From Dehalococcoidia bacterium (lineage in GTDB: Bacteria > Chloroflexota > Dehalococcoidia > Bin125), in the NCBI GenBank assembly GCA_022825855.1, contig JAJDWB010000019.1:248001-312000 (forward strand): a stretch of 64,000 nucleotides of DNA, in the 5' to 3' direction. The number at the start of each line of letters is the position of its first letter. Positions within the stretch are counted from its first letter, which is position 1. The position numbers and the translations under genes are program-made. Positions 5,682-58,158 of this stretch are shown in pieces. Below the pieces are notes generated by a model. It saw nothing but the letters and a program-made list of their open reading frames with translations. It did not search any database and was not told the DNA's origin.

Positions 5682-7769
5682 CTATCTCGAGCGTTCGCGG
5701 ACGGCGGAGTAGAGGCGCTCGTACTCTTCGTCCGTGATCGCGACTCGGGCGTAGGGCGGAGGGATCGCGGTCGAGAGCGCGCCGCTCGTTTCCGCCCAGG
5801 CGCGAAGGATCTCGCCGCCGGCGCCGGCGGCGAGATAGCCGGCCGAGAACTCGAAGAAGACGACCATCGCAATCTGCGGGTCGTCGAACGGCGCGAAGGC
5901 GATGAACCAGCCGTGGGTCGGGCCCTCTTCCTCGCCCGAGACCGCGGTGCCGGTCTGATTGAACTCGGCGGTGCCGGTTTTGCCGCCGATCAACATCTCG
6001 GGCATCGCCACGAGCGCATCGTGGCAGGTACCCATCAGCGTGCAAAGCGCCATGCCCTCGCGCACGATGCGCAGGATCTCGGGGTCGATGTCGAGCTGAT
6101 TGCGCACGACCGGCTGCCAGGGCTGGACGACGCGGCCCTCGGTATCGATTAACTCCTTGACCACGCGCGGCTCGTAGACGGTGCCGCCGTTAGCGATCGC
6201 GGCGGTCGCGACCGCCATCTGCAACGGGGTGACGGTGGTGAATCCCTGGCCGATCGCCATGTTGTAGGTGTCGCCGTCGCGCCACTCTTCGCCGAAGGCT
6301 GCGAGCTTCTGTTCGGCCGACGTGATCAGGCCCGCCGCCTCGCCGACGAGGTCGACGCCGGTCGGCGCGTCGAAGCCGATCTCTCGCGCCCAATGGGCCA
6401 GCGCCTCGTTGCCGACGCCGTCAAACTCGACATCGCCGGCGACGATGTCGTCGTCGGCCAGCTCGTCGACGCGTTCCTGCTCCACCGGATGTCGCGGCGG
6501 ATTCTCGGGATTGCGATAAGGATGGCCGCCGGCGACGTAGTAGAAGTAGACGTTAGACGACTCGGCCAGCGCCGTGCGGATGTTGAAGACGCCCTGGGTC
6601 GTGTCGCCGAAGCGGTAGATGATGCCGGGCGAGAGTTCGTTGTGGACTTCGAGCACGCCGGGCGAGTAGATCTTCGTCTCGGGCGTGATCGTCTCCTCGG
6701 CCAGCCCGGCGATGGCGGTCACGACCTTGAAGATCGAGCCGGGCGGGAACTGGTCCTGGATGGCGTGATTCTTGAGCGGCTGTCCCGGATCGTCGAGCAA
6801 CTCCCGGTACTGGTCGGTGGTAATGCCCTCGTAGATGTTGACGTCGTAGTTGGGTACCGAGACCATCGCCAGGACCTGGCCGCTGTGGATGTCGAGCACC
6901 ACGGCCGATGCGTAGAGCGACGCGCCGATCTGATCGGTCAGGATCTGCTCGATCCGCTGCTGCAGTTCGATGTCGATGGTCAGGACGGCGCTGAGTCCGG
7001 GCCTGGGCGGCGAGTGGTCGAGCGTGCGCAGGATGTTGCCGACCGCGTCCACCTCGACAATGTCGCGTCCGGCCGTGCCCCGCAGCTGCCGCTCGTAGGC
7101 CGCTTCGACGCCGGCCCGGCCAATCTGGTCGCTGTACAGGTAGCGCTCGCCGGAGAGTTCCTCGTACTCCTGCTCGGTGATCTTGCCGACATAGCCGAGG
7201 ATGTGTCCGAGCAGCCGGCCGTACTCGTAGCGGCGGAAGGAGGTCGTGTCGACGCTCACGCCGGGCAGCGCGGAGCGACGCGAGGTGACCTCGATCACCT
7301 GCGCGGGCGTGGGCTCCTCGTGGACCAGGAGCGGCAGGAATGGGTCGTTCGAGTACTTGCGCTCCCAGATTTCCTGCTCGAGCCGCCAGGCCTGAAGCTC
7401 GAACATCTCAGCGAGCTCCTCGGACACGTTCGAGACCTCGTCGTCGGGGATCTCGGCGGCGACGAGCGTGATCTGGTAAGCCGGGGCGTTCTCGACGAGC
7501 AGGTTGTGATCGGCGTCGTAGATTAGTCCGCGGGCCGGCGGGAGCTGGATCGTGCGCACGCGGTTGCTGGCCGCCCGGGCGACATACTCGTCGTGCTGCA
7601 GGATCTGCAGCCGCACGAGCTGGACGGTGAGGATGCCGAAGAGCAGCAGGATGAATCCGGCCAGCAGCCAGACCTTGAAGCGAACGGGGAAGCCCTCGCC
7701 GTGGTCGGGATGCTGGGCGTACTCGCGGGCAACGCCCTCCGACTTGCCGGGACGTGGTCGGCGTTGCAC
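5682..7769 (-). CDS. mrdA: Penicillin-binding protein 2 (elongation transpeptidase)
   Basis: Class B PBP that cross-links peptidoglycan with RodA. One N-terminal membrane helix (about 30-55), a pedestal domain, then the transpeptidase domain with all three active-site motifs: SIFK (nucleophilic Ser), SSN and KTG. An in-frame extension runs upstream into mreD, but the GTG at 7769 is taken as the start because it overlaps the mreD stop (TAGTG), a typical translational-coupling junction, and leaves a normal 695-residue protein. Expected in the cytoplasmic membrane with its catalytic domain outside. Confidence 0.94.
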   Translation of the reverse strand: MQRRPRPGKSEGVAREYAQHPDHGEGFPVRFKVWLLAGFILLLFGILTVQLVRLQILQHDEYVARAASNRVRTIQLPPARGLIYDADHNLLVENAPAYQITLVAAEIPDDEVSNVSEELAEMFELQAWRLEQEIWERKYSNDPFLPLLVHEEPTPAQVIEVTSRRSALPGVSVDTTSFRRYEYGRLLGHILGYVGKITEQEYEELSGERYLYSDQIGRAGVEAAYERQLRGTAGRDIVEVDAVGNILRTLDHSPPRPGLSAVLTIDIELQQRIEQILTDQIGASLYASAVVLDIHSGQVLAMVSVPNYDVNIYEGITTDQYRELLDDPGQPLKNHAIQDQFPPGSIFKVVTAIAGLAEETITPETKIYSPGVLEVHNELSPGIIYRFGDTTQGVFNIRTALAESSNVYFYYVAGGHPYRNPENPPRHPVEQERVDELADDDIVAGDVEFDGVGNEALAHWAREIGFDAPTGVDLVGEAAGLITSAEQKLAAFGEEWRDGDTYNMAIGQGFTTVTPLQMAVATAAIANGGTVYEPRVVKELIDTEGRVVQPWQPVVRNQLDIDPEILRIVREGMALCTLMGTCHDALVAMPEMLIGGKTGTAEFNQTGTAVSGEEEGPTHGWFIAFAPFDDPQIAMVVFFEFSAGYLAAGAGGEILRAWAETSGALSTAIPPPYARVAITDEEYERLYSAVRERSR

Positions 7770-54898: not shown

Positions 54899-54953
54899 GG
54901 CCACCCAAGCCTATCAGCGCCGCAGACCCGTCCTCGCTCCGATCGCGCGCGTG

Positions 54954-54982
54954 TTGGCTATCCCAGTGGTCGGGCATACACT
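54954..54982 (+). promoter_or_regulatory. Promoter of the coiled-coil zinc-ribbon gene
   Basis: TTGGCT (54954-54959), exactly 17 bp, TACACT (54977-54982). The leader would be about 60 bases. It is divergent from the yceD promoter 40 bp away. Confidence 0.6.
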
Positions 54983-55048: not shown

Positions 55049-55744
55049 ATGGACCTTGAGGGGATGCAGCAGCTCCAGGAAGTCGATATCCAGCGCGATC
55101 AGGCCAGGCGCGAACTCCAGCACGTCGTCGACCAGATATGCGATCCGCCCTTCGTCGCCCAGCTCGACGGCGAGATCGCCCAACAGGAAGAGGAAGCGCG
55201 CCGCGCCGACCACGCCGTGCGCGAGGCCCACGCCGTCGTCCAGACCGCCGAGCGCCGGATCGAAGTCACCGACCGCCGTCTCTACTCCGGCTCGATCACC
55301 GACCACCGCACGCTCGAAGAACTGCAGCGCGATCTCTACAGCCAGCGCCAGCAACTGCCGCCCCTCGCCGAGGCCGAGACCCGCGCCCAGTACGACGCCG
55401 AACAGGCCCACGATGCCGGCAAGTGGCTGCACAACCTGCGCACTGCCGCGCTCGATATCTGGAACGAGCGCCAGTCCCAGCTCGAGGTCGAGCGCTCCGG
55501 CATCCAGGAGCAGGTCGACGAACTCTCCCGCCAGGTCGAAATCCTCCGCGACCAGATGACCGGCGAAGATCTCGACGTCTACGACCAGTACCGTCGCCGC
55601 CGGCCTCGGGTCGTCGCGACCGTCGCCAGCGGCGTCTGCGCCGAGTGCCGCATCACCCTGCCAACGATCGTCGTCAGCCGCGCCCGACGCGGCGTCCGAG
55701 CCGTCGATTGTCCAGCATGTGGATGCTTGCTGCGCGTCGGCTAG
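55049..55744 (+). CDS. Coiled-coil protein with C-terminal C4 zinc ribbon
   Basis: 231 residues of the CT398/YbgI-like family annotated as C4-type zinc-ribbon proteins: a long antiparallel coiled coil (about 1-175, rich in Gln, Glu, Arg and Ala) then CAECRITLPTIVV...CPACGCLLRV. The family often sits next to RNase H genes and may act with nucleic acids, but the function is unproven. Here rnhA follows one gene later, after the recombinase-like protein. Confidence 0.82.
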   Translation: MDLEGMQQLQEVDIQRDQARRELQHVVDQICDPPFVAQLDGEIAQQEEEARRADHAVREAHAVVQTAERRIEVTDRRLYSGSITDHRTLEELQRDLYSQRQQLPPLAEAETRAQYDAEQAHDAGKWLHNLRTAALDIWNERQSQLEVERSGIQEQVDELSRQVEILRDQMTGEDLDVYDQYRRRRPRVVATVASGVCAECRITLPTIVVSRARRGVRAVDCPACGCLLRVG

Positions 55745-55764: not shown

Positions 55765-55776
55765 TAACATCCACCT
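55765..55776 (+). promoter_or_regulatory. Leaderless -10 box of the recombinase-like gene
   Basis: TAACAT (55765-55770) lies 6 bases before the GTG at 55777, without a ribosome-binding site. The -35 is unclear. Confidence 0.4.
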
Positions 55777-57243
55777 GTGCGAGCCATCGGGTACCTCAGT
55801 CAGGCTGCCGAGCATCCACACCGTCGCGACCCCGACGGCGGTGCCGCGCACGCCGCCAACGGCCATCAGCCGACCCTGATCGAGCAGAACGCCCGCTTCC
55901 TCGACTACTGCCGCGAACACGGCTTCGAGCCGACCGCGACCTTCCTCGACACCGACATCGTCCCCCACCGCGAACGCACCGGCCTGCGTCAACTGCTGCG
56001 CCACCTCAGCGAGGAGGCGCGCGGCTTCACGTTCGTCATCGCCCAGAGCTTCGACCACCTCGGCAGCGACGCCACCCAGGCCGTGCGCACCGTGCTCCAG
56101 CTCCGCTCGCGCGGCGTTCAGCTCATCTCACTCGACGAGGGCCCGATCGACGAGTCCTCCCTGATCGACCTCTGGCGACTGCACAACGATCCCGACCCCG
56201 ACACCGAGCGCCGCCGCCAGCGGCTCCAGGAGAAGGCGCGCCTGGGCCAGGCCATCGGACGCCCGCCCTACGGCTACCGCGTCGGCGACGACGCCCGCTA
56301 CCAGGTCGATGAGGAAGAAGCCGCCGTCGTCCGCCGAATCTTCGATCTCTACCTGCACGACGGTCTCGGCATCCGCCGCATCGCGCAGCGGCTCAACTCG
56401 GACGGCTATCAGACCCGCCGCGGACGCAACTGGAGCATGGTCACGATCCGCGACCTGCTGCGCAATCCCGTCTACATCGGCCGCTACGACAAACTTGGCG
56501 TCACTGTTCCCGGCAACCACGACGCCATTGTCTCCGAGCCTGACTTCGAGGCCGTCGCCCAACAGATGGAGCAGCGCCGTACCGCGCCCGGCGTCAGTCA
56601 TCCCTCCGACTTTCTCCTCTCCGGCCTGGTCTGGTGCGGCGAAGATCAGACCCGCATGATCGGCGTCACCCGCCGCCGTCAATGGCACAACGCCGGCGGC
56701 GAAACCGGCGAGACCATCTACCGCTACTACCAGTCCGAGGCGCGCACCAATCAGTCGGTCGGCAGCTATCACACCCGCCACGCCGACGAGCTTGAAGCCG
56801 AGGTATTGGCCCACATCCGCGGCGAGCGCGAGGGCGGCGAGACCTCGGTGCTCGATATCGGCCGCGACGACAGCGCGCTGGCCGCCGAAACCGTCGTCGC
56901 CGTCGCCAACGCCGAGGCCCGCCTGCGCGCCATTGATCGCCGACTCAGCCAGTTGCTCGAGGACGCCGCCACCGGCGATCCACCGCCTGCCGGCCTGCAG
57001 GACGCCGGCGCCGACCTGATCGCCGAGTGGGAGTCGGCCAGCGCCGACCTCGCCCAGATCCGCAGCCGCGCTGCCGCCCAGGACCGCGAAGCCGAACGCC
57101 GCCGCCGACGCGACCTCCGCATCCACCGCGTCCGCGAAGGCTGGGACCAGCTCAACTTCCCCCAGCGCCGCGACCTGATCGAGCACCTCGTCGAGCGAGT
57201 CGTTGTCTTCGACCACTCCGTCACCACCCAGCTCAAGGCCTAG
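55777..57243 (+). CDS. Serine-recombinase-like protein with lost catalytic residues
   Basis: 488 residues with the layout of a large serine recombinase: resolvase-like N-terminal domain (1-125), recombinase domain (about 155-240, GRPPYGY ... GIRRIAQRLNSDG ... IRDLLRNPVYIGRY), ribbon-like region (275-345) and a C-terminal coiled coil. The catalytic positions are gone: the family's Y-x-R-x-S reads YLSQA, and the DRLxR motif reads DHLGS. The zinc ribbon has lost its cysteines too; only Cys45 and Cys287 exist in the protein. No attachment sites or cargo flank it. Probably domesticated for a structural DNA role. Confidence 0.83.
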   Translation: MRAIGYLSQAAEHPHRRDPDGGAAHAANGHQPTLIEQNARFLDYCREHGFEPTATFLDTDIVPHRERTGLRQLLRHLSEEARGFTFVIAQSFDHLGSDATQAVRTVLQLRSRGVQLISLDEGPIDESSLIDLWRLHNDPDPDTERRRQRLQEKARLGQAIGRPPYGYRVGDDARYQVDEEEAAVVRRIFDLYLHDGLGIRRIAQRLNSDGYQTRRGRNWSMVTIRDLLRNPVYIGRYDKLGVTVPGNHDAIVSEPDFEAVAQQMEQRRTAPGVSHPSDFLLSGLVWCGEDQTRMIGVTRRRQWHNAGGETGETIYRYYQSEARTNQSVGSYHTRHADELEAEVLAHIRGEREGGETSVLDIGRDDSALAAETVVAVANAEARLRAIDRRLSQLLEDAATGDPPPAGLQDAGADLIAEWESASADLAQIRSRAAAQDREAERRRRRDLRIHRVREGWDQLNFPQRRDLIEHLVERVVVFDHSVTTQLKA

Positions 57244-57244
57244 C

Positions 57245-57257
57245 TACTCTCACCAGC
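57245..57257 (+). promoter_or_regulatory. rnhA leaderless -10 box
   Basis: TACTCT (57245-57250) lies 7 bases before the rnhA ATG, immediately after the recombinase-like stop. No ribosome-binding site. Confidence 0.45.
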
Positions 57258-57656
57258 ATGCAACTCATCGCCTACGCCGACGGCGCATCCCGGGGCAATC
57301 CCGGCCCCGCCGCCTACGGCGCCGCCCTCTACACACCGGACGGCGAGGAGCTGGACGCCTGGGGCAATCCCATCGGCCGCGCGACCAACAACGTCGCCGA
57401 GTACCACGGCGCCATCGCCGCTGTCGAGGCGGCCCTCGAGCGAGGCGCCACCCGGCTCGAACTCCGCCTCGACTCCGAACTCATCGTCCGCCAGCTCGAA
57501 GGCCGCTACCGGGTCAAGCACCAGCAGCTCAAGCCCCTCTTCGAGCAACTCTCCGCCCTGATCGATCAGCTCGACGCCTTCCAACCCACCCACGTCCGGC
57601 GGGAACTCAACACCCGAGCCGACGCCCTCGCCAACGAAGCTCTCGACCGAACCTGA
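57258..57656 (+). CDS. rnhA: Ribonuclease HI
   Basis: 132 residues. The four acidic residues are visible: YADGASRGNPG (Asp), NNVAEYHGA (Glu), LRLDSELIVRQL (Asp) and NTRADALANEAL (Asp). Short form lacking the basic handle, like archaeal and Bacillus YpdQ-type enzymes. The ATG at 57258 is used because upstream in-frame codons overlap the preceding gene. A palindromic element follows the stop by 4 bases. Confidence 0.94.
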   Translation: MQLIAYADGASRGNPGPAAYGAALYTPDGEELDAWGNPIGRATNNVAEYHGAIAAVEAALERGATRLELRLDSELIVRQLEGRYRVKHQQLKPLFEQLSALIDQLDAFQPTHVRRELNTRADALANEALDRT

Positions 57657-57726: not shown

Positions 57727-58127
57727 CGCCAGGCCGCCGGGCGGTCGCGGTTCCCAGTCAAGTCCGACTTGGCCGGGGATCGAGGAAAGTCCGGGCTCCT
57801 CGGGACAGGGCGCTGGGTAACTCCCAGGCAGCGCGAGCTGACGGAAAGCGCACAGAAACACACCGCCTACCCGTCCTCTCGTGTGTGGGGACGGCGGCAA
57901 GGGTGAGATGGTGCGGTAAGAGCGCACCAGCGGTCGGGCGACCGGCCGGCTGAGCAAGCCCCGCCCGGAGCAAGACCAAATAGGGAGGCGACGGCTCGTC
58001 CCGGGCCGCCTCCGGGTAGGTCGCTCGAGGCGGCGGGTAACCGCCGTCCCAGATGGATGGCCGCCGCCCGACTCCGGGAGCAATCCATGGCGTCGGGTAC
58101 AGAACCCGGCTTACAGGCGGCCTGGCG
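57727..58127 (+). ncRNA. rnpB: RNase P RNA, bacterial type A
   Basis: The catalytic RNA of RNase P, which matures tRNA 5' ends. The universal core is clear: GAGGAAAGTCCGGGCTC near 57782, ACAGAAACA near 57851, and near the 3' end AACCCGGCTTACAGGC. The 5' end (CGCCAGGCCGCC, 57727-57738) pairs perfectly over 12 bp with GGCGGCCTGGCG (58116-58127), fixing both ends; length about 400. No terminator separates it from murE, so it may be processed from a longer transcript. Confidence 0.96.
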
Positions 58128-58158
58128 ATTGACGCGAATCAAGAGTGAGAGCGAGCGC

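Follow-up and report, generated by a model that had tools for sequence, protein, structure and literature searches.

In serine recombinases, Ser10 is the covalent nucleophile; in active large serine recombinases (LSRs), a long and continuous helix αE builds the tetramer, and a coiled-coil hairpin pairs the DNA-bound dimers in synapsis. Domesticated transposases devoid of catalysis are familiar in eukaryotes. In the sections of a review on recruited mobile-element genes that we draw upon, serine recombinases appear only as working enzymes that retain catalysis (PMC8987985). Here we describe a family from the Dehalococcoidia, termed dSR, which resembles Hin, XisF, SpoIVCA and Xer in being an element enzyme apparently adopted by its host, but which, if functional, would work without the catalysis retained by the recruited serine recombinases of those sections. 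No conserved non-catalytic family of bacterial serine integrases was found described before: a search of openly licensed papers yielded none on inactive LSR families in Chloroflexota, the dSR gene order or domesticated LSRs without catalysis, which is weak evidence of absence. Although the LSR fold is known, its class-wide and host-owned non-catalytic state appears to be new. The gene lies in a cluster with znr, rnhA and rnpB, on which it offers a testable handle; to our knowledge, the zinc-ribbon member of this cluster has no settled general function. The upstream znr belongs to the HP0958/FlgZ, CT398/CdsZ and MSMEG_4306 family (PF24481 plus PF02591), whose known members include binders of sigma-54 and of other proteins (PMC3372290, PMC5947703), CT398 itself complexing with RNA polymerase (PMC5947703). 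DUF164-type genes near rnhA or RNase P RNA are on record in other bacteria, but a recombinase-like gene is reported in none of those neighbourhoods (PMC3372290).

The window analysed here is a stretch of 64,000 nucleotides from a Dehalococcoidia bacterium (contig JAJDWB010000019.1). It encodes dSR in an uninterrupted reading frame of 488 codons with a GTG start (Table 1). Of 5,000 Markov sequences matched to it in composition, eight stayed open, with a mean of 6.1 stops, so the frame is not due to chance, a point settled by homology and dN/dS. Pfam searches revealed Recombinase (E 1.2e-23), Resolvase (7e-9) and Zn_ribbon_recom (9e-8) domains, all above the cut-offs and in the order of LSRs. 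The AlphaFold2 model has a pLDDT of 87, as does that of a distant orthologue. Structural similarity search with the whole chain showed that the top solved matches are integrase-DNA complexes, led by YokA of SP-beta with a Z-score of 18.2 and followed by Bxb1, PhiC31 and A118 Int at about 14-15. Taken over residues 1-488, Pfam, Foldseek and VIA-align place dSR in the LSR fold and homologous superfamily, with resolvase, recombinase, ribbon and coiled-coil parts in the right order. The first-pass annotation had read these regions in a single frame and had suggested a structure prediction; the frame and the Pfam domains agree with that reading, and the prediction returned the full LSR fold. The best NCBIfam matches are XisF/CcrABC-type developmental and cassette recombinases, which cut DNA, at 50-96 bits, far under the cut-offs of 375-900.

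Table 1. Features of the dSR locus, in coordinates of the window
Feature	Position	Strand	Evidence
Probable cluster promoter, TTGGCT (54954-54959), 17 nt, TACACT (54977-54982)	54954..54982	+	Conserved block upstream of znr in 14 congeneric genomes; consensus match only
znr, coiled-coil zinc-ribbon protein (CT398/HP0958-type), probable partner	55049..55744	+	C-terminal CAEC...CPAC; PF02591 weak in window; synteny
-10-like box TAACAT, 6 nt before GTG, possible leaderless start	55765..55770	+	Corresponding position in congeners carries TAACAT, TAGCAT or near variants
dSR, predicted catalytically dead LSR	55777..57243	+	488 aa; Pfam, fold, active-site alignment, class-wide orthologues
Former catalytic (resolvase) domain, residues 1-131	55777..56169	+	R8->S8, S10->A10, R68->H94, R71->S97; alignment with active LSRs; Z 12.6 against the catalytic domains of PhiC31 and TP901-1
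Predicted broken helix αE, residues 137-147 between two helix pieces	56186..56218	+	AlphaFold2 pLDDT < 50 at residues 138-143; distant orthologue broken at 122-137
DNA-binding region (recombinase and ribbon domains), residues 150-348	56224..56820	+	Highest conservation; invariant columns, identity, charge
Coiled-coil hairpin and C-terminal strands, residues 365-488	56869..57240	+	AlphaFold2 helices 365-398 and 404-458, confidence mostly high
rnhA, ribonuclease HI	57249..57656	+	RVT_3 E 4.7e-20; RNase_H 1.7e-10
rnpB, RNase P RNA (class A)	57729..58129	+	Rfam RF00010, 270.8 bits

The active site was compared with that of 12 ordinary LSRs, namely three near-identical copies from the same genome and nine from congeners, all of which keep Arg8, Ser10, Arg68 and Arg71. 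Alignment against this set revealed that the window dSR has replaced all four, as already noticed at first reading for the Y-x-R-x-S and DRLxR motifs, and no active site elsewhere in the protein was found in the alignment. Among 62 aligned orthologues, Ser10 is missing from 61, and the one that has it (L013) lacks all three arginines; Arg8 persists in 26, Arg68 in five and Arg71 in six. No orthologue retains more than two of the four residues, nor is a replacement Ser or Tyr conserved at the site. The second-shell residues Gln19 and Asp36 survive in 47 and 46 of the 62, respectively, as expected if the fold is kept. In the one LSR mutant checked, the S10A substitution renders a serine recombinase of C. 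difficile inactive (PMC5025042). On chemical grounds, the window dSR is very unlikely to cut DNA.

Compared to active LSRs, both predicted models lack the long continuous helix αE, which is interrupted by a segment of low confidence, whereas the coiled-coil hairpin is kept. The DNA-binding region carries a median net charge of +18, compared to +9 to +23 in active LSRs.

Purifying selection acts on all domains of dSR. A simple pairwise NG86 count on pairs with dS up to 1.2, which gives rough rates, put the within-genus median dN/dS of the full-length gene at 0.19; by region, the medians were 0.17 (N-terminal domain), 0.14 (DNA-binding region) and 0.18 (coiled coil), and the nearest pairs gave 0.06-0.16. 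This check had been proposed together with the claim of selection for a non-catalytic role, and the ratios are well below 1 in every domain. Across the class, the mean pairwise identity is 52% in the DNA-binding region against 31% in the N-terminal domain, and every one of the 1,596 divergent dSR pairs shows the same order. Active LSRs differ: in 31 of 51 pairs, most of them drawn from two related groups, identity is higher in the N-terminal domain. Moreover, an alignment of 41 diverse members has 26 invariant columns, all of them within the DNA-binding region. Selection on dSR thus appears to have moved from cutting to binding.

A dSR profile matched 189 of 393 sampled Dehalococcoidia genomes at E <= 1e-65, corresponding to 111 of the 220 better genomes and 105 of 226 genera, with one copy per genome apart from three exceptions. 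Since about half of the class genomes lack the gene, it is not essential for the class. With the protein as query, an orthologue was found in all 20 genomes of the order, that of G019 being a fragment at a contig end. None of the matches listed has an internal stop. In L075 (flipped, about 6555-6840), the gene start (MRAIGYFS...) lies in a different frame from the rest, owing to a real frameshift or an assembly error. Outside the class, the profile search found no dSR among 400 genomes across the phylum: true members score 273-638 bits and all others at most 213, and those examined among the latter are ordinary integrases keeping YxRxS/DRLxR or YARVSS. Viral contigs, phages and plasmids gave no dSR orthologue, just distant ordinary LSRs at about 25-30% identity. 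Altogether, the search for orthologues with catalytic residues or mobile cargo, covering the 393 class genomes, the 400 phylum genomes, viral contigs, phages and plasmids, returned none. A tree that also included 17 active LSRs, five of phage origin, places the dSR proteins in a single clade (support 100/99, recovered in 100% of the bootstrap trees). Unlike the LSRs that it resembles in fold, dSR lacks the nucleophile and the DRLxR arginines, has a broken αE in the predicted models, and is a vertically inherited, single-copy gene at a core chromosomal place, where no element or directionality factor was seen. The three near-identical ordinary LSRs of the same genome are 31% identical to dSR and have intact active sites. 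These copies, L002, L003 and L004 (G000:C21:47743, C12:80 and C22:220297), of which two lie at or near contig ends, probably represent a recently spread element.

Pfam and Rfam confirmed the neighbours named at first reading, a coiled-coil zinc-ribbon gene, rnhA and rnpB. In the window, znr ends 32 bp upstream of dSR, and rnhA begins 5 bp downstream, followed by rnpB. The proposed search for orthologues sharing these neighbours found them across the class: znr lies immediately upstream of dSR in 36 of 40 class loci, most of which are flanked by housekeeping genes; rnhA follows dSR in many loci, and rnpB is inside the examined stretch in six of nine as well as in the most divergent case, L134. 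Most syntenic znr orthologues tested score above the cut-offs for PF24481 and PF02591, the window copy being weak for PF02591 with both CxxC motifs present. Outside the genus of the window, 32 of 42 loci have a spacing of -4 to +11 bp between the znr stop and the dSR start, often of 1-8 bp, so the two genes are probably translated together, which would be the general state outside the family of the window. The orientation of rnpB in the cluster is not fixed, as in L047 it lies at 6215-6572 on the strand opposite dSR. Where dSR is missing, in other members of the class and in G463 from a different class, the genes are directly adjacent as znr-rnhA-rnpB or znr-rnpB; dSR was therefore inserted into an older cluster. 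It lies away from the cluster in L065 and L078 (one family), L076 and L077, with the DNA-binding region still kept, so the partnership with znr is not obligatory. Among these relocated copies, L076 sits near rplU and L065 beside a DUF177 gene, and the N-terminal domain is most degenerate in L076 and L077.

The loss of the zinc-ribbon cysteines noticed at first reading holds for the window protein, which has only Cys45 and Cys287 and of the four zinc ligands retains Cys287 alone, but not for the family as a whole. All four ligands (CxxC...C...C) are present in 44 of 62 orthologues, with Cys287 invariant, so the missing cysteines are lineage-specific. Within the window's own family, the genus of L080 keeps the ligands, while the other genera lost three of the four together. 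The tree suggests that this was probably a late and local change, a single event in that branch, where DNA contact could be weaker or altered.

These observations bear on what kind of protein dSR might be. That dSR is a relic in slow decay, retained through its place in an essential operon, might be suspected from the degenerate N-terminal domain of varying length, from the zinc ligands lost in one branch and from the apparent N-terminal frameshift of L075. However, the absence of stops among the matches listed, dN/dS values of about 0.06-0.19, the 26 residues invariant over about 40 diverse members and the persistence of the gene after relocation in L065, L076 and L077 have already largely refuted this idea, which is scarcely credible. 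That dSR is a still-active recombinase, acting through other residues or through the active site of a partner, is likewise highly improbable. The pocket has not been wholly erased, as indicated by Arg8 in 26, Gln19 in 47 and Asp at position 36 in 46 of the 62 orthologues; against catalysis stand the nucleophile missing from all but one with no conserved Ser or Tyr in its stead, the absence of Arg68 and Arg71 in about 90%, the break of αE in two predicted models and the inactivity of the S10A mutant (PMC5025042).

The main alternative accepts a non-catalytic protein but sees its targets in RNA or RNA:DNA hybrids: dSR would bind nucleic acids or serve as a scaffold together with the products of znr, rnhA and rnpB, rather than being a site-specific DNA binder. 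It draws on the co-location of these genes across the class, on an order znr-rnhA-rnpB that predates the insertion, and on HP0958-family proteins, for which binding to nucleic acids or to proteins is presumed (PMC3372290). We consider it unlikely, as the strongest constraint falls on the canonical LSR DNA-binding module with its canonical motifs and charge, and the neighbourhood was perhaps inherited as an old cluster, not for function. Alternatively, dSR might be a dominant-negative guard: by sitting on att-like sites that belong to it or to active LSRs of the genome, it would block mobile elements from integrating or excising. An inactive integrase could in principle compete for sites, near-identical active LSR copies reside in the same genome, and dSR adjoins rnpB, an RNA gene usable as an element target. 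Nevertheless, the active LSRs are just 27-31% identical to dSR, which makes shared site recognition unlikely, its slow vertical evolution across the class is unlike an arms race, and no link to elements was seen, leaving such a guard quite improbable.

The best explanation overall is that an LSR was captured once, ceased to cut and persisted on the chromosome, in single copy, as a DNA-binding protein, to which we assign a probability of about 0.62. Orthologues, dN/dS and fold all support the selection for a non-catalytic role claimed at first, and dSR is almost certainly a non-catalytic domesticated protein. Conservation, fold and charge argue that it probably binds DNA in a sequence-specific manner; for a physical partnership with the zinc-ribbon protein, we see roughly even odds. 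We propose that, in an early ancestor of a large part of the Dehalococcoidia, the gene of a phage- or element-type LSR was captured between znr and rnhA/rnpB, and that it was retained after cutting had been lost. A dSR dimer would bind a palindromic or half-site motif without cutting it, the recombinase and ribbon domains gripping the half-site in the manner of active integrases. Held by a flexible rather than rigid αE, the degenerate N-terminal domain would provide dimer contacts at most, so that no cutting or rotating tetramer would assemble. The coiled-coil hairpin might bridge two bound sites, or dock the co-translated CT398/HP0958-type partner, and the role of dSR would be that of an architectural or regulatory factor with sequence specificity. 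In its fullest form, which we put forward only tentatively, host-owned, ancient and class-wide non-cutting LSRs pair with a CT398/HP0958-type protein to bind and bridge chromosomal sites; if true, the integrase synapse would have been turned into a chromosome-architecture or transcription factor. In addition, about 190 natural sequences that seemingly kept recognition and discarded cutting could reveal the parts of the DNA-binding module that remain important once catalysis is gone.

Footprinting of the upstream regions among congeners revealed the probable znr promoter and no obvious palindromic binding site. The TAACAT/TAGCAT-type box before dSR occurs in congeners and was not found outside the genus. 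Of the first-pass annotation's claim of an own leaderless promoter, the part that concerns the window's genus remains plausible, but beyond the family most dSR genes start no more than 11 bp from the stop codon of the preceding gene. A GATAGGCT-like box (54905-54935, minus strand) precedes the DUF177 gene and is conserved; it is placed near the start, much like that at 55765 for dSR, and leaderless starts may be common in the genus of the window.
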